Assembly: GCA_905221615.1 (NCBI GenBank)
Contig: CAJNDT010002057.1
Location: 186,001 to 250,000, forward strand
DNA from: Symbiodinium sp. CCMP2592
Lineage: Eukaryota; Sar; Dinophyceae; Suessiales; Symbiodiniaceae
DNA: 64,000 bases
Direction of reading: 5' to 3'
Part shown: positions 54,456 to 64,000 of the stretch, piece after piece
How positions within the stretch are numbered: the stretch's first letter is position 1
How the letters are laid out: every line of letters starts with the position of its first letter
Position numbers and translations under genes: made by a program
Notes under the pieces: model-generated
Told to the model about the DNA's origin: nothing
Database searches by the model: none
Seen by the model: the letters and a program-made list of their open reading frames with translations, nothing else

Positions 54456-54950
54456 AGTCTCTGGCTTTTCAATGGCACGCAACAAGGGTAAAGGTTGGCT
54501 TAGGGCTAAGGCTGTGCGTAGGGTGTTTCACGTGGCTTTTTCAGAGACCCAAAGCAAAATTTCGGGTGTAGGGTTCGGGGTAAGGGTTTGAAGGCTTAAT
54601 TAGGGGCTTAACCTCACCTTTTGAAAGGCAACAAAAGGGTTTTCAGAACGAGTTTATAAAGTTTTCCGTAGCTCATGTATATGGATTTAGATACAGCTGA
54701 AGGCTTCTGTAGCCAAGGCTTTTACAAAGGTGCCCTTCTTTAAACATCGTAGGTGCCTGCCTGTGCAGGTTCTTTCAGTGTTCTATCAGGGCCTGTGTCT
54801 CTGGGCTTGGCAGGCTCATATAGATACAAGAGCTATTTGTTGACAACGTTGGAAATAAGCCACTTCAAGAAATCGACCCCACTTCGCAGTGATGAGTCCA
54901 ACAGCTTGAGTAAGACTCGCAGCTTAAAGCCCTAAACCCCAAAACCCTAA
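54456..54950. other. SMC4 intron segment left of the retrotransposon
   Basis: Mostly unique with some TTTAGGG-like text; the last 25 bases before the LTR are CCCTAAA-type. No convincing SMC4 exon seen. Confidence 0.55.
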
Positions 54951-55244
54951 TGTTGATGCAAGGGTACTGCAGGCTCAGCTCTATCCCCAGCTGAATCATC
55001 CATGATCGCACAGCGAAGGCTCGCACTCGAATTGGTTTTTCGCGAACAAAGACCTGTTTGGTAAGCTGCAATCTTCCTAAGCTTCGAAATGTCATGCTCT
55101 GCATGAAACTGTGCTATGAAGCGTGAATCTGCATGCTGTGGCACTCCGGCCACTGAAGTCCTTGGGCCCTCACGGCCATCTGTCATGCATGCGCTGTGCC
55201 TTCCACATGACATGTCACAGCACCTGGCGTGGGAGCTTTCAACA
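54951..55244 (-). repeat. 3' LTR, complete (294 bp)
   Basis: Bounded on the sense strand by TGTTGA and TCAACA, a six-base inverted terminal match, with the polypurine tract just outside. It contains an open 88-codon frame (55213 to 54947) whose end is the start of gag in the 5' copy. No TATA box is obvious. Confidence 0.93.
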
Positions 55245-55312: not shown

Positions 55313-58300
55313 TCAGTACATTGACCGTCCACTGTGGTTTTGACACAAATTACAGAACATTAACTTCCGGGGTTTATGGACATTGCGCAAGCCCCAGCAG
55401 TTGCACACTGTGTGAAAATGATCACCATTTCCTGAAACATACACAGGACCTTCATGCCATTGGGGCACCATCACTTCACGAACTTCGACTTGGCCTCGAG
55501 GAGGTGGCAACGGATCCGTTTGAACTCCGACATCCAAACTTCGCCTTGAAAGAGCACTCCTTCCTCGCCGCACCACCGTAGAAGTAGAAGAGCTCGAAGT
55601 CGAAGATGGTGCACCCATCCACTCACTGGTCGCACGCTTAGGTGGCGGCGGGTCGGTCGTCTCCATTTCAGCCAACTTGGCAGCCAATTCACGTTGGACC
55701 GCCTCTTGTAGTCGACGATGACGCTTCGAAGACCTTGACTCGCCGGGATCGCCACAGCAACGTTCCCATACGTACCAAAAAGCCTCCCACAAGCCAACAA
55801 GGGCCATGCCAGCAACAGCGATCGCAGCATACAGCTCAAAGGAACTGTCCAGTGCCAAGGGCTCAATACTCGACGCACGGGCCGTCTGAACCATCATACA
55901 AAGCACCATCATACGAACCAAAGCCAGCTTAGAAACTTCTGTGACCAAATCCACAAAACCCCAAATCCCAACCAGCTCTTCAAGTCGCTGACGGGGAAAC
56001 GATTTCGTGAGTAGGTCGGCCCACTGGTTGGAGCCTGGGACGTAGACAACTGAGACCTGGTCGGTGAGGATCTGCTCATGGATGTAGGCCGCCCGAACTC
56101 TTAGGTGGCGGGTGCGCCACGAAGTAGACGAAGAGGGCTTTGCTAGTGTAATCGCAGCCTGATTATCGATGCGAAGAGAAATGTGACCCAAATCTTTATG
56201 CATCTCACGCACTACCGCAGCAATGCTTTTGCCAATGACCAAACCTTCTGTGGCTGCCAGCAACTCGCATTCAGCAGTACTCAGGCACACGAACGGCTGA
56301 CGAGCCGAACGCCAACATATTGGCGCTCCCATCCACACAGCAACCATTCCAGAGTGGCTGCGGGAGCCCTCCGGAGCGAAAGAGCTGTCCGTGTACACGG
56401 CGAAGTCAGAAGTGGTTGGCCTCAAACTCAACGCCAGGTGTTTTGTACGCTGAAGGTAGGACCTGAGGCGAGCCGCAATCCTCAAGCATCTGGGCGCTGC
56501 CCTGGTCAGCAAAGAACCCATAGCACAAACAACAAAGCTGATGTCCGGTCTGCTTCTCTGGGCAATCCAAAGGAGTTCACCACAAGCCTTTTGAGCTTGC
56601 TTCACCTCATCATCACTCCCCCGATCTTCACCCTCAAAGGCCTCAAACGTGACCCATTCCTTCGGAGCCTGGATGGGAGACTGCTCGGTCTGCTCTGTGC
56701 CATGATGACGTAAAATCTCCTCGATGTAGGGCCGCTGGTGAAGGTAGATCGCAGAGAACTCCTCATTGGTGGCAATCTCGCAACCCAAAAACCGGATATC
56801 ATGGTCAAAAGAAAGCAGGTCCAGCTCCGAGGTTTTCCACTTGGCTGAAATCGTCGCCGCGAGGGCCGTGACAAGCCACAACGGGCCAGCCAAGAGGATA
56901 TCGTCGACGTAGAGCAAAACCAAGCCAGTGGGATCACATTCTGGCGCTCCAACCTCATAAACCATCCATAGGTTTGGCTCTGCCTTGCCCTGCTTCAGGG
57001 ACCACGTCTTGCCTTCATGCTCGACCTCAACACCGGCAATGTAGTCGTCCCGATACGACGCCCAGAGCTTAGGCGACTGACGTAAACCATACATGCCATG
57101 CGTCAACAACCATCTCTCGGTAGGCTGTGCCAACCCCAGCTGGATCAAAGCAGCCGGAGGCCTGATGATGTACACAGTCTCCCGTTCACCGCGCGGCAGC
57201 GGTGTGAGCATGAATGCTCCAGAGATGTCAGTGATCCCTGATCGCCAACGGCGGCGTGCGCTGTATGTAAGAGCACACCGAAGACTCTCTGCTGCAGCGC
57301 CACCCGCATACAACTCATTCTGGTCTTCGGCGGCGTAATTGCCGCAGCACACTATGCGTGCCTTTCTTTTACAAAGGGCGGATTCGCCCTCCTCCTCAGC
57401 CGACTCGGCAGCCGGAGGTTTCACAGTATAAACCAACTTGGAGGGCAGCTCCTGGACAACAAACTTCTTCTTCAGCTCGCTAACCTCAGAGGTAGTCACA
57501 CGCTCGAATCCTTTTTCAACAACACCAAGCTCCTTTGATATTGCGGGTCGCCACTTTGCTATCACAGCCTTGGCTTCCTGAGGACTCACATTGTAGGTGT
57601 GCCTTAGGGGGATCTTGTTGTCAATGGCCGTCTGGATAATGCCTTCAATATCCTCAACGTACTCAGGCTCAAGCTTCGCGACACGAGGAACATCATACAG
57701 CCCCAGCGAAGCCCAATACTCAACACTCCTTTCCATATCGGCCTTATACTCAAAGTCCCCTTCACCCTCATTGAAGATCTCCGGGATCAACGTAAGTCCA
57801 GGCAACTCAGCACCTGGATCCTCAGAGCTGCAAAGTCGCTTCAAACAAGCTTTCGCGCTGACCTCACCATCGACACCCTCCTCCTCAACAGGCTCCTCAG
57901 CATACAAAGCCCAATCCCACATGGTAGCTTCGCAATCTCCCGTGGTAACAGCATCCACCTCACCAACTTCATCATGAGCTCCACCCAACAATGTAGCTGA
58001 TGGCAAGGAAGCTGCCCTCATCATCGGTCTGGTTTCCAATGAATTACCAACGGAATCATCATCACCTTCATCGTCAACATGAGCCAACGGGAAATTAAGG
58101 GCTGCCAGGTACTTCTGGTCGTTCGCATTCAGCTTGTAGGCTCCTTGAGGGGTATATGCAGACAAGAACCATTTCCTGTTTCCCTCAGTCACATAAGCGT
58201 GTGGTACATGCGGATCAAACACCGCCGGCTTCTTGGTGACATCAACCAAGCATCCTTCATGAGCCTGCCCATGTTGGTCAACGTACTGATAATCCTTCGC

Positions 58301-61138
58301 ATTGGCACCACCAACCACACGTCGTTCCATTCCTTGGTTTTCAACCCACAAACCGTCCAAGGATCTCGTCTTCAGCTCCAGCACGTAGTTGTAGGTGTTG
58401 CGCTCGTTGTGGCTGTCCTTATGTTTGGGTATCTGCTCAGCAGACTGAAGGGCAATGGTAGTCCATGTAGTGTGCAGCCCAGGCCAATGCTTGTCAATCT
58501 TGGCTCTCAAATAGCTGTTGAAGTAGCGGGTTACCCATGGGAGGTCACGACCATATCTCGTAACCCCAAACGACCCACCATGAACAAACGCACCGAGGAT
58601 CATCCCTTGGCCTTCAGGAGCGCGAGGAACCTTCAAGTTTCCACAAGTTCCCGCAAACAGCGCCAGAAGACGAGCACATTCCTTTTCGCTGAAACAATCA
58701 TTGCGAAACATCTGCTCCGCAACAGTCTCGACGTAATCAATCTCCCCGGCACGGAGGTACTTCACGGATCCATCTGGACAATCATCTTCCACAGAGGAGG
58801 GAAGCACGTCCGACAGCACTTCCAATGGTTGATAAAACGTGTCCATCTTGGAGACCATAGGAGCCTTAGCTCTCATCCTTCTTGCCGGTGGCGGTAGAGC
58901 GGGTGGTGGTAGAGGAGGTTCTCCATCAGCAGGTCCATCACTCTCCTCAGGCTCGACGAGCACGGTTGGAGCCACATCATCAACGGTAGGTGGATCTCGG
59001 GTCACTCGAACATGGGTAGTTTGAATAAAGGTGCCGGAGTCCTTGAGGATAACATGGCCTCCCCGGATGTCAGTGGAAGGGCCCACATAGCGACCCTTGG
59101 TCCAATGAGGACCGAAGTCCTCCACTGCTCCAGTCTTGTACCTCTTGGTCTTCACATAGACCTTGGTGCCATAAGCAACAGGCATCACTGGTAGCGAACC
59201 GAGACGTTCGGACCGCTGCTGGGCAGCCGCATACTGTATCGCCGTGGGCCAATTCTCCTTGGAGACTCCACCAGCATCAAGCAACACTCGCGCCCGGCGC
59301 TTCAAGTAGCGCACACCAGCCTCCGCAACGCCATTGGCAGCTGAGTCGGATCCCGTAGTCGTAGTAGGCCACATCCCTTGAGACAGGGCCCATTTTCTCA
59401 CCAAGTTGCCACGAAATTCTCCACCTCGGTCTGAATGCAAACGGGTGACTGGATAGCCCAAAGCCTTCACTTCTGTCACAATGCGCTGCACAGCTGGTAG
59501 CATGGTGGCAGCCTTCTTGTTGTTGACTGGGACCGCAAAGTACAAAGTCGTGGTAGCAATTGGTTCTTTGAAGGTTGCCAAAAGCTCTTTCCAAGTTTGT
59601 TCCTCCTTCTCAACTTCATCCAAGCCCACGCCCGCACCCTCAGGGACCGCATCATCGTCAAGAGGGTCATCGCACTCAATCGTCTCCTCCTCGTCCTCGG
59701 CGTCCAACGGCGGGAGAGGGTGACCGCGAACTTCTCCATGGCCCTCAGCACCCTCAACCTCAGGTATCCTGAACGCCCCAATGACAAAGTACTTGAAGAA
59801 CTTCCCATCAGGTGAACGGCCAAAGCCCTTCAAGGGGCCCACCACATCAACACTCAGGCTGTAAGCCATTGGATGCAAAGTCGAACGGTGCTGATGGCCC
59901 GCCGCGCTGTTCCTCACGCACACAGAGCAGTCTCTCCTAAAGGGCTGATGGTTCCTGGCAACATGCAGTCGCCACGCTGCGTCACTACTCATCTTCGCCA
60001 TTCGAACACAGCGAAGTCCATCATAGTGGTCCACGGAAACATCAAGCATGCCCATCTCCTCAAGGTAGGCTCGCGAGTCCTTACACCGCGTCCATGGAAG
60101 CCAAGTAGTGGAAGCAGGCTCCTCCTGGGAAGCTGGAGTAGATGCAGCTCTCCTCAGATCTTCCACATAAAATCTCACTGGACCATCACCATGACATTCT
60201 CGAGCAACCGAAGCCAACGCATGTAAGAAGTGAACCTTGCTGCGATGGGGTCCTGCAACAACTTGCTCAGGGTGCTTGGTCGCCGCATCCTTGGCGACGA
60301 CTGTTGAAATCCTCCCATCCAAAGCAGCCCATTGGATCACCTTCCAAACATCATCGAAGTCACTCTCAGCCAACAACGTGCTCATGTTCACATACACCGC
60401 GCAATCCACAAAGGAGAGGTGCTTCAACGGATCACGAGGCCTCTCCGAGGCCGGGGAATCCCAGCGCACAATCCACGACCTGGATCTGAACAACTTCTTC
60501 CTTCCACGGCGGTTAATGCGCAGCCCCTTCATCAAAAGATCCCATATCCCTTGCTTCGGCGGCTTCACAATCAGCTGATCCTTGATCACATCCTTATAAT
60601 CAAGAAACACCGCCTTGTCAACCGCAGCACGAGCATCCAAAGCATTGCCACCCTTCACATAGTTCCGGAGGTAGGACCACCAGCTCGCCTTGAGCTGCGA
60701 GATGGCCTTCACGGAAGCTTGAGTGGCCTGCTCAAGCTGAGGGAGCTGTTGCTCCTCTAACTTCTGAATCAGTCTATGGGCCACTCCCTCGCTGACTTCC
60801 GGGCATCCGTTCCGGACCGTAAGAGGAATCACATCCCCAGTTGGCCCCACCAATTCACAAACATTGGCGTTCCAGCTCAGCCGGTAGCCGAGGGTGGCAA
60901 TGACCTTGCCAAGGGGAACGATCACCTGGGCCATATCATCGGTGCTCAACAAAGTTCCGGACTCATTCTGTTTCATCAGCGCCACAGAATCCCCGGCGAG
61001 TTGTACTCCCACACTGCGAGCCTGATACCATTCACCCTGGTCACGAGGTTGCCGAAGTGCATGTGTGGCTCCTGAATCCAGCAGCGCTCGCCTTGGGGTC
61101 CGGTCCTCTACGGTAACTCCTAGCCTAGCCCACAACAT
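55313..61138 (-). CDS. pol: Pol polyprotein with an extra oxygenase-like domain and C-terminal extension
   Basis: 1941 residues. Protease D21-S-G. Short integrase zinc module H392-x4-H397-x6-C404-x2-C407. Integrase catalytic triad D431, D570, E606 (D-x35-E between the last two) with an acidic insert between the first two. A 2-oxoglutarate/Fe(II) oxygenase-like region, roughly 820-1000, with H906-x-D908, N911, H980 and R988. Copia reverse transcriptase with D1304 and Y1410-V-D-D. RNase H with D1584, E1623, D1658, D1708. After RNase H comes an unusual tail: hydrophobic segments 1738-1750 and 1769-1791, a basic helix around 1801-1825, and a Cys/His cluster H1909, C1912, C1914, C1929, C1932. All catalytic residues are present and no stop interrupts it. 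It lies in the -1 frame relative to gag, so expression as Gag-Pol needs a frameshift. Confidence 0.95.
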   Translation of the reverse strand: MLWARLGVTVEDRTPRRALLDSGATHALRQPRDQGEWYQARSVGVQLAGDSVALMKQNESGTLLSTDDMAQVIVPLGKVIATLGYRLSWNANVCELVGPTGDVIPLTVRNGCPEVSEGVAHRLIQKLEEQQLPQLEQATQASVKAISQLKASWWSYLRNYVKGGNALDARAAVDKAVFLDYKDVIKDQLIVKPPKQGIWDLLMKGLRINRRGRKKLFRSRSWIVRWDSPASERPRDPLKHLSFVDCAVYVNMSTLLAESDFDDVWKVIQWAALDGRISTVVAKDAATKHPEQVVAGPHRSKVHFLHALASVARECHGDGPVRFYVEDLRRAASTPASQEEPASTTWLPWTRCKDSRAYLEEMGMLDVSVDHYDGLRCVRMAKMSSDAAWRLHVARNHQPFRRDCSVCVRNSAAGHQHRSTLHPMAYSLSVDVVGPLKGFGRSPDGKFFKYFVIGAFRIPEVEGAEGHGEVRGHPLPPLDAEDEEETIECDDPLDDDAVPEGAGVGLDEVEKEEQTWKELLATFKEPIATTTLYFAVPVNNKKAATMLPAVQRIVTEVKALGYPVTRLHSDRGGEFRGNLVRKWALSQGMWPTTTTGSDSAANGVAEAGVRYLKRRARVLLDAGGVSKENWPTAIQYAAAQQRSERLGSLPVMPVAYGTKVYVKTKRYKTGAVEDFGPHWTKGRYVGPSTDIRGGHVILKDSGTFIQTTHVRVTRDPPTVDDVAPTVLVEPEESDGPADGEPPLPPPALPPPARRMRAKAPMVSKMDTFYQPLEVLSDVLPSSVEDDCPDGSVKYLRAGEIDYVETVAEQMFRNDCFSEKECARLLALFAGTCGNLKVPRAPEGQGMILGAFVHGGSFGVTRYGRDLPWVTRYFNSYLRAKIDKHWPGLHTTWTTIALQSAEQIPKHKDSHNERNTYNYVLELKTRSLDGLWVENQGMERRVVGGANAKDYQYVDQHGQAHEGCLVDVTKKPAVFDPHVPHAYVTEGNRKWFLSAYTPQGAYKLNANDQKYLAALNFPLAHVDDEGDDDSVGNSLETRPMMRAASLPSATLLGGAHDEVGEVDAVTTGDCEATMWDWALYAEEPVEEEGVDGEVSAKACLKRLCSSEDPGAELPGLTLIPEIFNEGEGDFEYKADMERSVEYWASLGLYDVPRVAKLEPEYVEDIEGIIQTAIDNKIPLRHTYNVSPQEAKAVIAKWRPAISKELGVVEKGFERVTTSEVSELKKKFVVQELPSKLVYTVKPPAAESAEEEGESALCKRKARIVCCGNYAAEDQNELYAGGAAAESLRCALTYSARRRWRSGITDISGAFMLTPLPRGERETVYIIRPPAALIQLGLAQPTERWLLTHGMYGLRQSPKLWASYRDDYIAGVEVEHEGKTWSLKQGKAEPNLWMVYEVGAPECDPTGLVLLYVDDILLAGPLWLVTALAATISAKWKTSELDLLSFDHDIRFLGCEIATNEEFSAIYLHQRPYIEEILRHHGTEQTEQSPIQAPKEWVTFEAFEGEDRGSDDEVKQAQKACGELLWIAQRSRPDISFVVCAMGSLLTRAAPRCLRIAARLRSYLQRTKHLALSLRPTTSDFAVYTDSSFAPEGSRSHSGMVAVWMGAPICWRSARQPFVCLSTAECELLAATEGLVIGKSIAAVVREMHKDLGHISLRIDNQAAITLAKPSSSTSWRTRHLRVRAAYIHEQILTDQVSVVYVPGSNQWADLLTKSFPRQRLEELVGIWGFVDLVTEVSKLALVRMMVLCMMVQTARASSIEPLALDSSFELYAAIAVAGMALVGLWEAFWYVWERCCGDPGESRSSKRHRRLQEAVQRELAAKLAEMETTDPPPPKRATSEWMGAPSSTSSSSTSTVVRRGRSALSRRSLDVGVQTDPLPPPRGQVEVREVMVPQWHEGPVYVSGNGDHFHTVCNCWGLRNVHKPRKLMFCNLCQNHSGRSMY
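57960..58700 (-). other. TET/JBP-like 2OG-Fe(II) oxygenase domain inside pol (approximate span)
   Basis: Pol residues about 820-1000. Visible: TTWTTIALQSAEQIPKHKDS then HN, where H906 and D908 give the iron HxD and N911 completes the H-x-D-x-x-N form seen in TET/JBP-type enzymes. A glycine/tryptophan strand GLWVENQG follows, then FDPHVPHAYVTEGNRKWFLS, with H980 as likely distal iron ligand and R988 as likely 2-oxoglutarate anchor. Such enzymes hydroxylate bases or proteins. Assignment rests on motif spacing only; no search was run. Confidence 0.6.
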
Positions 61139-63867
61139 CCCAAAGCGGCAAGCACCGGCTTGAACACCGAGATCTCCTGAAGGCCCTCCAAGACCTTCAT
61201 CACCTTCGCCTGGATATCCCCCGTCTCGAAGTTCACCCTCCGTGAAGTTTCAGAGGTAGGCGTAGATGAAGAAGTGGCACCTGTGTCACTCGCACCAACT
61301 GAACCACCCTTTGGAGCACCCTTCGGAGTTGCAGCACCGCCACCCGGAGCACGGCATTCCTTGGCTTTGTGGCCCTGCGCCCCGCAGTTGAGGCACTTCT
61401 TCTGACGGCTAACCTTGTCCAAAAGGTTCCAAGTGTGAGGATACTTGCACTCACGACCTCGGCGGCATCCCTTGTCTGAGGCAAAGAACCGACATACATT
61501 GCTCGGTGGTCGTGGCGTTGAAGGTGTAGGTGGAGGTGGAGGTGACGTTGAGGTGGTTGGAGATGTTGTAGGCGCATCCTGAGTGGTACCCAAAGCCTTC
61601 AATGATGTAGCCTGATCACTAGCGGGTCGTGCTGCTCCAAGCCTCGCCTGCTGCTCCATCTCGGCCTGCAAGTGCTGGGTGAACGTAGTGATGCTCTGGG
61701 AGCTGGGGCAAACATCCAACTGCAAAGTGCTCCTGATCAAGCTGACCCGAAATGCCAGCTCCCCGCTCCCTCGGACCACAGGTCCAGTGATACGGTCTAA
61801 ACCGCGCAGCAGGATTGAAGCATCTGGTTCAGCGATGCCCATTGTCGCGGCACGGCGACGCCAAAGGCTCCACTTACGAAGAGCCTCCACTGCAGCGAGG
61901 GCCGATTGGCACTCTTCAGGCTGCTCCAACATCCTCAACACCAGGCTCTTCTCTTGCAAGTTCCCGGGCTGATACACGGAGTAAAGCTTACACAGCAGTC
62001 CCAACGAAGTAACTTCCCCGCTGGCAATCACTTCATCCCTGACTTGCTTCGGCACCGCACTCAACATCATCGCAGTAGCCCGCCTTTCCACCCGTGCCCA
62101 TTCCGCCTTCAACGGAGAAGTTGGCCGAGGGCGCAATTGAAGCCTGGCCAACGGAGTAGAGGAAGAAAACTGCTGGTACCAGCGAAGAACATCGGCCATT
62201 GTCGACTCCCACCAAGCCCCACTGGTATCTGAGAGGTCCTCCATCATCGGGCCGATGTGGGTGATCCAACTAAGGAGGTCGATACTGCCCGAACTAGGCT
62301 GGTACTCGGGGAGCAACGGCAACTCGCTGATGCCCGGTTTCACAGTTTCCGGTCGATCACCACGACCTGACTGACTCTGCTGCAGCAAAGCTTCAATGCC
62401 TTTCGCCAGTGTGAGAAGGACGCCGCCATCAGCATCACCAGCTGCACGTCCTGGATCTCCTGGCACTCGAGGTGGTTGTAGAGGTATGTGTGGTTGTGGT
62501 AGTTGAGGAGGTTGTAGGGGAAGTTGTGGTGGAGGTGGTACAACATGATCATCCGAATGTCGGCAACCAACGCTATCGCCATAGGGCTGAGGGCCTGAAT
62601 CACGAAGACCACCACCCAAGCCGAAGAGACCCTGCAAAAACGAACGTGGTCCAGGTGACTGCGAACGAGGACGACTAGGCGGTCTATTGTCAACAAAGGA
62701 ACCCAGAGGAGGTAGATCAGAGAGAACTTCAGGCTGGATTCCAGCACCTCGTACATTTCTATCCACCCCTGGTACCCCATCAAGACCCCGTAGGCGAGCA
62801 TCATAACTCCCATCGTGTTCAGCTAGATCACGTGGTGGCTCGATTGCACGAGGAGGTAGAGCAATGCCAGTTGCTAAGCGCTGCTCTTGAGGGACCTGAG
62901 GAGGTAGATCGGCGAGAACTTCAGGTTGGATTCCCGCACCTTCTTCTCCTCCCTGGGGACGATCACGAAGAGGACGAAGTCGAGGAGCTTCTGCATACAT
63001 GACTCTGCTCTCTTGTAGTTCAAGCTGACTTCTGAGCCTTCGAGCCTCATCACGAGCCTCCTCAGTTCGCCTCCTTTCCGTATTCAACCTCTGCAACACA
63101 TCACCCATTGCCACTTCCAACTGTCTTGAAACCTCAGCTTGCACAGCTTCAGCAGAGACACCTCCGCTGCTGACCGAAGCATCTCTCGGCTCCTGTGGTG
63201 CAGTCTGCCTCACATTGGCAGAAGCGGAAGCCGAAGATCGAGGCCACTGCTGTTGCACTCCAGCGGATGCCTGTGACGCCGACCACGAAGTCACTTCCAC
63301 GCGTCGCTGGATGTAGTCACCAAGCCTCGAGAACCAGCTGGGCCCACGCGCAGGCAGCGAACCTGCATCTGACAAAGGCGATTGTCCTGGTAAAGGCGAA
63401 GGAAGAAACTGAGGGAACAACGGTTCCCCACTTGCATTGTACATGACGGCCTCCCTGGGAGCCGTGCTGGGCGGCTCGGGAACAGGTAGCGTTATCGGAG
63501 GAGGAGATCTATCAATCATCATGAACGCATTCAAGTCCTCCTCTGCCGCCTGAAACCCGCCACCCCGAGTAGTAGTCGGCAAATGATCATCATTCATAGA
63601 CCTCGGAGGTGGTCTTTCATCTGCCTGAGAGCCCCGTCGATCTGGAAGATTCGGGGGTGCCGGGGAACTTCCTGCAGGAACACCATTAGGAATCAGAGCT
63701 GAACCCCGTTGCCCATCTGCATCTCGGTTCATACGAGGATGTTCTGGATCATCGCGATGGTAATCGGGGCCTCTTTCCTCGCCCTCCAACACAGGAAGCG
63801 TTGGGCTCATACCCTGTTGATGCAAGGGTACTGCAGGCTCAGCTCTATCCCCAGCTGAATCATCCAT
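61120..63867 (-). CDS. gag: Gag polyprotein of the copia-type element
   Basis: Encodes the capsid/nucleocapsid that packages element RNA. 915 residues from the first in-window ATG. Order: a proline- and arginine-rich N-terminal 220 residues; a predicted coiled coil near 225-275; a linker with a duplicated GAGIQPEVL(A/S)DLPP motif; a helical capsid-like region around 520-760; a CCCH zinc finger C792-x8-C801-x5-C807-x3-H811; and a retroviral-type zinc knuckle C825-x2-C828-x4-H833-x4-C838. The second finger is the usual nucleocapsid RNA-binding module; the CCCH finger is an addition. The frame stays open to the window edge, so translation could start upstream inside the LTR (next ATG expected near 64077), or at Met20 (63810) just past the LTR. 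It ends in a stop at 61120-61122, overlapping pol by 19 bases. Confidence 0.93.
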   Translation of the reverse strand: MDDSAGDRAEPAVPLHQQGMSPTLPVLEGEERGPDYHRDDPEHPRMNRDADGQRGSALIPNGVPAGSSPAPPNLPDRRGSQADERPPPRSMNDDHLPTTTRGGGFQAAEEDLNAFMMIDRSPPPITLPVPEPPSTAPREAVMYNASGEPLFPQFLPSPLPGQSPLSDAGSLPARGPSWFSRLGDYIQRRVEVTSWSASQASAGVQQQWPRSSASASANVRQTAPQEPRDASVSSGGVSAEAVQAEVSRQLEVAMGDVLQRLNTERRRTEEARDEARRLRSQLELQESRVMYAEAPRLRPLRDRPQGGEEGAGIQPEVLADLPPQVPQEQRLATGIALPPRAIEPPRDLAEHDGSYDARLRGLDGVPGVDRNVRGAGIQPEVLSDLPPLGSFVDNRPPSRPRSQSPGPRSFLQGLFGLGGGLRDSGPQPYGDSVGCRHSDDHVVPPPPQLPLQPPQLPQPHIPLQPPRVPGDPGRAAGDADGGVLLTLAKGIEALLQQSQSGRGDRPETVKPGISELPLLPEYQPSSGSIDLLSWITHIGPMMEDLSDTSGAWWESTMADVLRWYQQFSSSTPLARLQLRPRPTSPLKAEWARVERRATAMMLSAVPKQVRDEVIASGEVTSLGLLCKLYSVYQPGNLQEKSLVLRMLEQPEECQSALAAVEALRKWSLWRRRAATMGIAEPDASILLRGLDRITGPVVRGSGELAFRVSLIRSTLQLDVCPSSQSITTFTQHLQAEMEQQARLGAARPASDQATSLKALGTTQDAPTTSPTTSTSPPPPPTPSTPRPPSNVCRFFASDKGCRRGRECKYPHTWNLLDKVSRQKKCLNCGAQGHKAKECRAPGGGAATPKGAPKGGSVGASDTGATSSSTPTSETSRRVNFETGDIQAKVMKVLEGLQEISVFKPVLAALGCCGLG
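61138..61144 (-). promoter_or_regulatory. Candidate -1 frameshift site between gag and pol
   Basis: Sense heptamer TTTGGGA, read in gag as T TTG GGA. It fits X_XXY_YYZ and slips to TTT GGG, entering pol right before its first ATG and 18 bases ahead of the gag stop. G at Y is not the classic choice, so this is inference from position and frame. Confidence 0.5.
63798..63814 (-). other. Putative primer-binding site
   Basis: Directly after the 5' LTR the sense strand reads GGGTATGAGCCCAACGC. Its complement contains GGGCTCATA, resembling a methionine tRNA anticodon stem-loop. Copia elements prime from an internal half of initiator tRNA-Met, so the same mode is inferred here; a tRNA set from this genome is needed to confirm. 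Confidence 0.5.
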
Positions 63868-64000
63868 GATCGCACAGCGAAGGCTCGCACTCGAATTGGT
63901 TTTTCGCGAACAAAGACCTGTTTGGTAAGCTGCAGTCTTCCTAAGCTTCGAAATGTCATGCTCTGCATGAAACTGTGCTATGAAGCGTGAATCTGCATGC
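63815..64000 (-). repeat. 5' LTR, 186 bp visible
   Basis: Same sequence as 54951-55136 except one transition. The remaining ~108 bp should lie right of the window, ending near 64108. Confidence 0.93.

Follow-up and report, generated by a model that had tools for sequence, protein, structure and literature searches.

A predicted TET/JBP-like 2-oxoglutarate-Fe(II) oxygenase domain within the polyprotein of a copia-type retrotransposon from Symbiodinium

What is the extra domain that lies between the integrase region and the reverse transcriptase (RT) in the pol frame of a copia-type retrotransposon from the dinoflagellate Symbiodinium? The element is located on the minus strand of a 64,000-nucleotide stretch of contig CAJNDT010002057.1 from Symbiodinium sp. 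CCMP2592 (the window), in which it extends from position 54951 to beyond 64000, and the domain occupies residues 836–1055 of its pol open frame (58085..58744, minus strand). The original prediction, which was made from the sequence without database searches, had placed a TET/JBP-like 2-oxoglutarate (2OG)-Fe(II) oxygenase at 57960..58700; this interval located the domain properly, although its N-terminal end (58744) falls just outside. Based on a profile link through related elements and on ligand conservation, we consider it very probable that the domain is TET/JBP-like by homology, and we name it so rather than as a curated member of PF12851.

The domain contains the sequence HKDSHN (residues 943–948; 58406..58423), which has the form H-x-D-x-x-N of a predicted iron-ligand motif, and a GLW motif (residues 966–968; 58346..58354) that is the equivalent of G-x-x-W in those relatives that match the Pfam model Tet_JBP. 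Further along are an FDP motif (residues 1011–1013), the putative distal iron-ligand histidine H1017 (58199..58201), and K1026 (58172..58174), a likely 2OG-binding basic residue that aligns with an invariant arginine of related domains (alignment A3, see below); all of these lie on the minus strand. The GLW and FDP motifs and the ligand pattern had been recognized from the translation alone and are indeed present, but the residue numbers given for them were 37 too low, so that H906, D908, N911, H980, and R988 of the original prediction are H943, D945, N948, H1017, and R1025.

The prediction had named loss of these ligands in related elements as grounds for abandoning it, and they are conserved throughout. 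A database search with the domain region identified 39 proteins (E value of 1e-3 or less, among 289 candidates), and every one of these with a named source is from Symbiodinium, including a protein of Symbiodinium sp. CCMP2592 that is 100% identical to the window domain. Together with the window pol these sequences form an alignment of 40 rows, 35 of which are distinct; H943, D945, and N948 are invariant in all 35 distinct rows, and H1017 is invariant in the 33 that have no gap at this position. A search of the window's own genome gave at least 150 matches to the domain with E values of 5e-18 or less (best 150 of 3302 first-look candidates), although these include pieces of single copies and the number of matches is thus not a number of copies. 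From 78 own-genome loci, 77 of which matched the profile, we took 72 and removed sequences at least 93% alike, resulting in 53 nonredundant rows that comprise 52 copia-type loci and one DIRS-like locus (L001); L002, L006, L036, L037, and L038 were left out as broken, partial, or duplicates of the window. H943, D945, N948, W968, F1011, and H1017 are invariant in all 53 rows (52 of 52 without L001). Therefore, the H-x-D-x-x-N motif and the distal Fe(II)-ligand histidine that characterize TET/JBP enzymes are both found in every row in which they can be compared.

The family assignment rests on a transitive comparison of profiles. We compared alignment A1, which consists of 18 copia domains, with alignment A3, which consists of 18 DIRS-type relatives and the copia domain L073; 17 of the DIRS-type rows were picked from the best 150 of 5098 candidates obtained with a DIRS-type query. 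In hhalign, A1 and A3 aligned over 162 columns with a probability of 99.85 and an E value of 6.4e-31, as opposed to E values of 0.014–0.4 for controls with five column-shuffled profiles and one reversed profile, and the alignment pairs the H, D, N, and distal H of the two groups and places K1026 onto the invariant arginine of A3. A profile of the 52 other own-genome rows likewise matched the L001 domain over nearly its full length with 65.6 bits, whereas the best of 1000 shuffles reached 5.3 bits; the L001 row is part of the multiple alignment and stands outside this profile. Among the 19 members of A3, 11 match Tet_JBP with an E value of 1 or less, and none matches any other 2OG family in Pfam. 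L001 gives the best of these matches (30.2 bits, E value 3.2e-7, below the cut-off of 34.9), L073 matches with an E value of 0.0022, and the best Tet_JBP match of the relatives spans profile positions about 73–162. When the own genome was scanned with Tet_JBP, four matches had an E value of 0.001 or less (best 29.6 bits, E value 2.2e-4, cut-off 34.9), and all four fall in DIRS-like rather than copia-type elements.

A link to characterized enzymes was obtained with profile A4, which combines 13 of the 19 A3 rows with four of five short-frame loci (described later) that were selected through Tet_JBP matches. Against the 177,635 sequences of the PDB, A4 gave five matches with an E value of 10 or less, all of them to TET2 or CcTet (E values 0.023–1.7). 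The alignment with TET2 includes the HxD motif, and the distal H and the R are aligned at a negligible score (-2.3 bits). TET2 is also the top PDB match of the domain of the DIRS-like locus L007 alone (E value 0.093).

Several results weigh against this assignment. The window domain itself matches no model in Pfam, PHROGs, or NCBIfam, and neither it nor A1 gives more than spurious weak matches among PDB sequences; the PF12851 cut-off of 34.9 bits is reached by none of the relatives either. L001 was itself found by scanning the genome with Tet_JBP (E value 2.2e-4 in that scan), and of ten further A3 members, L073 not among them, that were rescanned singly, six matched Tet_JBP at E values of 0.0088–0.15 and four did not match. 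The PDB result for A4 is not independent of Tet_JBP because its four short-frame rows were chosen by Tet_JBP match; moreover, A4 was assembled after A3 alone had given no TET protein in the PDB and the same histidine-kinase chain as A2 (36 members, mostly copia), and its E values are individually weak. Direct comparison with the TET-like enzyme of solved structure, NgTet1, failed: hhalign gave no alignment of A2 or A3 with the single NgTet1 sequence, and HMMER gave no score, whereas 1000 shuffles reached 9.8 bits. With NgTet1 as a database query only NgTet1 itself was found. However, NgTet1 also fails to match the Pfam Tet_JBP model, which makes a missing Pfam match weak evidence and means that membership of the family is not decided by the cut-off. 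Thus, the TET/JBP-like identity proposed for the domain stands on profile homology through a transitive link only, together with the conserved ligands, and the Pfam comparison suggested alongside it found no match for the window domain and Tet_JBP matches for the 11 A3 relatives.

Of the 36 members of A2, two match Tet_JBP. Other candidate matches were rejected. Six A2 members match TPIP1 (best E value 0.0075), which we take as chance. Against the PDB, A2 gave two artefacts, namely the histidine-kinase chain 3v9f (E value 2.3e-4), whose match is made up of scattered short stretches (best 9.6 bits) and is attributed to repeats, and a ribosomal-protein chain (E value 0.033); matches of L077 alone and L073 alone were spurious. 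Comparison of A1 with viral contigs gave ten pattern stretches, none of which was confirmed, that of A3 gave no stretch that could be used, and a domain-only database search with A1 for free-standing relatives gave 11 matches among 5906 candidates, of which the three with a named source are from Symbiodinium.

The arginine that had been included in the ligand pattern, R1025, is a poor candidate for contacting 2OG given that just 5 of the 33 distinct rows without a gap there, and 6 of the 53 own-genome rows, have an arginine. The next residue is likely the better one: position 1026 is R or K in all 18 rows of A1, the group of the window copy, and in 36 of the 53 own-genome rows, and an arginine nine residues past the distal histidine is invariant in all 19 rows of A3. 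The other 17 own-genome rows have N, D, or Q at 1026, which counts against an active enzyme in those lineages, and their cofactor binding may be altered or lost. Position 1014 is K or R in 39 of the 53 rows, and no row lacks a basic residue at both 1014 and 1026 (Fisher p 0.002, uncorrected for shared ancestry). Because each of the 53 rows is basic at one position or the other, this pattern suggests that the 2OG contact site is able to shift and is yet retained.

Comparison of copies within the genome indicates that the domain is maintained by purifying selection because nonsynonymous change stays well below a synonymous change that is near saturation. Two copies that are 78% identical differ at a proportion of 0.154 of nonsynonymous sites (pN) versus 0.739–0.741 of synonymous sites (pS), and the 20 own-genome copies compared show near saturation at synonymous but not at nonsynonymous sites. 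In the 12 of 190 pairs in which the synonymous divergence dS is 0.05–1.5 the median ratio is 0.13 and the highest 0.54 (pairs with the distant L039/L040); across pairs the median pN/pS is 0.37, with pS saturated.

The element that carries the domain is a young copia-type retrotransposon of a coral-symbiont alga. Its long terminal repeats (LTRs) are 294 bp in length, end in TGTTGA and TCAACA, and differ from each other by one mismatch in 294; the 3' LTR lies at 54951..55244, and the 5' LTR at 63815..64000 is cut by the window end and extends to the window-equivalent position 64108 in L006 (both minus strand). A 5-bp target-site duplication, CCTAA, is found at 54946..54950, and its partner is just past the window end after the 5' LTR. 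The insertion site consists of CCCTAAA-like (telomere-type) repeats, and the window contains a total of 168 CCCTAAA/TTTAGGG words. Adjoining the 5' LTR, the sequence at 63790..63814 (minus strand) was read as a putative primer-binding-site region; it resembles the copia primer site that is complementary to the anticodon arm of initiator tRNA-Met. The gag region (61120..63814, minus strand) includes a CCHC zinc knuckle (zf-CCHC, E value 0.011, below the Pfam cut-off), and its open frame continues through the window end at 63999.

The pol open frame (P0001; 55313..61249, minus strand) has 1978 codons from stop to stop. Its N-terminal part contains DSGA (residues 58–61; 61067..61078), which we take to be an aspartic protease motif. 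The integrase region (residues about 430–720; 59090..59962) has no Pfam match and was placed by position and by similarity among relatives that have the same order. Downstream of it and of the extra domain, the RT matches RVT_2 with 47.2 bits versus a cut-off of 31.6 (residues 1292–1518; 56696..57376) and contains YVDD at residues 1447–1450. An RNase H region (residues about 1640–1775; 55925..56332), again without a Pfam match, was assigned by reading of the translation and by order. All of these features are on the minus strand, and the order protease, integrase, extra domain, RT, RNase H is also that of the relatives. Thus, the paired TG...CA LTRs with a short target duplication and an RVT_2 domain downstream of the integrase, here placed without Pfam support, agree with a Ty1/copia element. 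In the window copy gag and pol are in two frames that overlap by about 130 bases (61120–61249). A second copy, with a domain that rounds to 100% identity, has a single open frame of 2961 codons, which argues that the window copy is either frame-disrupted or uses a frameshift.

The domain is found in several positions of copia- and DIRS-like elements of this one genome. Of 40 long polyproteins (P0001 and P0003–P0041; the database rows are gene models, and P0003 is the database counterpart of the window pol), 39 have the domain behind the integrase region, and the sole exception has no integrase match; five stop before the RT. Three further copia loci (L080–L082) have the order integrase, domain, RT by reading of their translations. 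In L079 the domain is upstream of the integrase and behind a protease-like region. In L078 (G000:C258:252500-262400, minus strand), a copia-like polyprotein in a 3110-codon frame, the domain is at residue 1472, after the RT (YVDD at 784; weak RVT_2 match, E value 0.051) and RNase H motifs (1121 and 1163), and is followed at residues about 2378–2565 by an RNA 2'-phosphotransferase (PTS_2-RNA, Tpt1/KptA; 33.1 bits, cut-off 26). L078 is one of many own-genome matches with near-equal scores and frames of around 3187 codons. An own-genome scan with RVT_2 gave at least 150 places (best 150 of 5766 candidates).

Read from its translations, the arrangement of L007 is DIRS-like: it has a frame read as a tyrosine recombinase, which no Pfam model matches, together with a gag-like frame and a third frame of 1283 codons that encodes the oxygenase domain, a C5-methyltransferase-like region, and then a weak RVT_1 match (E value 0.012, below the cut-off). 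L008 has frame lengths equal to those of L007. In L100 the domain lies, by reading, after the RT and RNase H and before methyltransferase- and recombinase-like regions. C5-methyltransferase-like motifs (PPC-like and ENP, by reading) adjoin the oxygenase domain in L007, L079, and L100; the corresponding regions of L007 and L100 have no Pfam match, and if they are real a writer and an oxidizer are encoded side by side. The DIRS-type query found at least 150 places in the genome (best 150 of 5098 candidates), a list that may overlap with that of the copia-type query. Phylogenetic analysis of 70 domains placed the 50 main copia rows in one clade (support 0.99) and the DIRS-type rows in a second clade (support 0.44), with L073 and L077 apart. 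The label DIRS-type for L083–L099 is based on kinship with the L001 domain, the context having been read for L007 and L100 and, by frame lengths, L008.

In the 1.1-Gb genome the Tet_JBP scan gave 148 places with an E value of 10 or less, none of them over the cut-off, and the 1283-codon DIRS-like frames were at the top. It also led to short frames. L101–L103, of 313–326 codons from stop to stop, represent a dispersed family of about 310–330 codons that combines the TET/JBP-like domain with its own conserved C-terminus and is apparently free-standing; its members may be host genes or retroposed genes and are candidates for a role in base oxidation. L104 (G000:C5172:211800-213300) is a single 373-codon frame with the pattern HRDANN...GGELFVQ...H...R and is possibly an exon of a host gene. 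All of L101–L105 match profile A3, and the E values against Tet_JBP are 4e-4 for L101, 5e-5 for L104, and 0.0012 for L105.

What would such a domain do for the element? We think it probable that the copia pol domain is a divergent TET/JBP-like 2OG-Fe(II) oxygenase that oxidizes 5-methylpyrimidines in DNA, that is, 5-methylcytosine (5mC) and/or thymine. Either released by the protease or still within pol, it would bind Fe(II) through H943, D945, and H1017 and 2OG with the help of K1026, and would oxidize the 5-methyl group in the cDNA of the element or in a newly integrated copy. Oxidation of 5mC could blunt silencing by the pervasive CG methylation of the host, and oxidation of thymine could provide new copies with the 5-hydroxymethyluracil (5hmU) mark of host DNA. 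The two substrates seem nearly equal in likelihood, and we slightly favor 5mC because DIRS-like elements of this genome have sister domains that adjoin C5-methyltransferase-like regions. Both versions make sense in this host: two species that were assigned to Symbiodinium at the time have a global CG methylation of close to 70% (de Mendoza et al. 2018, PMC5890265), and in S. microadriaticum 12% of T is replaced by 5hmU, a base that in Breviolum is enriched over repeats (PMC11071213).

A genuine descendant of the TET/JBP enzymes might instead act on RNA (the element RNA or a primer tRNA), on N-methylated bases, or on protein. We regard this as unlikely, though the domain is highly divergent from characterized TET/JBP enzymes and has no direct match to them, CcTet is reported to demethylate N6-methyladenine and the TET homolog CMD1 to use vitamin C instead of 2OG (PMC11065753), and the PTS_2-RNA domain of L078 points to RNA-related functions in at least one carrier. 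The only characterized enzymes reached by our profiles are the DNA oxidases TET2 and CcTet, however, and the neighboring C5-methyltransferase-like regions in the DIRS-like elements also argue for a DNA substrate. The fold could also have been retained while catalysis was lost, leaving a structural or nucleic-acid-binding domain with a metal site for folding only, as the 17 rows with a nonbasic position 1026 and the weak direct similarity to active enzymes might suggest. Such a loss is quite improbable in view of the HxD pair, Asn, and distal His that are invariant in 53 of 53 rows, the basic residue that each row has at 1014 or 1026 (with the uncorrected test given above), and the K or R at 1026 throughout A1, the group of the window copy.

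Convergence of an unrelated metal-binding fold, such as an HNH-like or cupin-like one, on the HxD..N..H pattern of TET/JBP would explain why the window domain matches no 2OG family in Pfam, why NgTet1 does not align, and why most single Tet_JBP matches of the relatives are weak. Against this stand the 162-column homology to domains in which no Pfam family other than Tet_JBP recurs, the PDB matches of A4, all of which are TET/JBP proteins and whose TET2 alignment spans the HxD motif (the distal H and R carrying the negligible score noted above), and the failure of NgTet1 itself in Pfam; convergence is hence very improbable. Returning to oxidation of DNA 5-methylpyrimidines, a further extension is that dinoflagellate 5hmU, which takes the place of much of the thymine in the DNA of these algae, is made wholly or partly by TET/JBP-like enzymes that retroelements carry or that derive from retroelements. 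In general terms, a review considers TET-family enzymes the likely makers of dinoflagellate 5hmU (PMC6723414), and in the open-access passages covered no dinoflagellate gene for this is named. We hold this extension to be doubtful; if it were true, the signature DNA base of the host would be written by transposons, and the capture of DNA methyltransferases (DNMTs) and of TET/JBP enzymes by retroelements of the same host would be one linked phenomenon. The sharing of the domain by many related elements of one genome suggests that these retroelements come with a means of their own to rewrite DNA marks, and arms races over base editing would thereby extend to retroelements. As concrete candidates, the domains can be expressed and assayed, and the old question of the origin of 5hmU becomes directly testable with them.

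Compared with the TET/JBP family (PF12851; TET2, CcTet, NgTet1, JBP1/2), the window domain shares H-x-D-x-x-N, a G-x-W or GLW about 23 residues on, and the distal H; as in many but not all of the related rows, a Lys or Arg is found nine residues later, before a hydrophobic strand, and relatives in its genome match Tet_JBP; it differs in lacking a PF12851 match, in being part of a retrotransposon polyprotein, and in having its own N-terminal region (residues about 836–930). Transposon-borne TET/JBP enzymes as such are already known, and the present case places a TET/JBP-like domain inside retroelement polyproteins. The original fungal TET/JBP transposon paper is reportedly that of Iyer and colleagues. 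In fungi, DNA transposons including Kyakuja, Dileera, Zisupton, Helitron, and others carry TET/JBP genes for which an escape from methylation-based silencing has been proposed, and that fungal survey reports no retrotransposon-borne TET/JBP (Kojima 2025, PMC12730594). The original prediction's author knew of no oxygenase described in this position, which agrees with the open-access literature: among the papers listed in searches of it, no title or opening of an abstract describes a retrotransposon-encoded TET/JBP enzyme.

Symbiodinium retroelements that encode DNMTs, SymbioDIRS-Dnmt3 and SymbioLINE-Dnmt, are the other close precedent; their DNMTs were tested in yeast, the Copia elements are without any DNMT domain, and the words TET, JBP, and dioxygenase have no occurrence in the main text of the paper that describes them (de Mendoza et al. 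2018, PMC5890265). L007 and L100 have RT and recombinase-like frames as described for SymbioDIRS-Dnmt3. In the window element we find plain LTRs with a 5-bp duplication instead of the split repeats, tyrosine recombinase, and DNMT of SymbioDIRS-Dnmt3, and the Pfam scan of this element detected no recombinase or DNMT, a scan that also misses the recombinase-like frame of L007. As a Ty1/copia (Pseudoviridae-type) element it has the LTRs, 5-bp target duplication, protease motif, integrase before RVT_2, and RNase H region, and departs from that type in having, between integrase and RT, an added oxygenase-like domain some 200 residues long. A retrotransposon TET/JBP-like oxidase would thus join both precedents: like the fungal TET/JBP elements it is a mobile element with a TET/JBP-family oxidase and a proposed antisilencing role, although those are DNA transposons and the window domain is in frame in a dinoflagellate LTR retrotransposon, and like the Symbiodinium DNMT elements it is a retroelement with a DNA base-modifying enzyme, although the enzyme there is a methyltransferase and here an oxygenase between plain LTRs.

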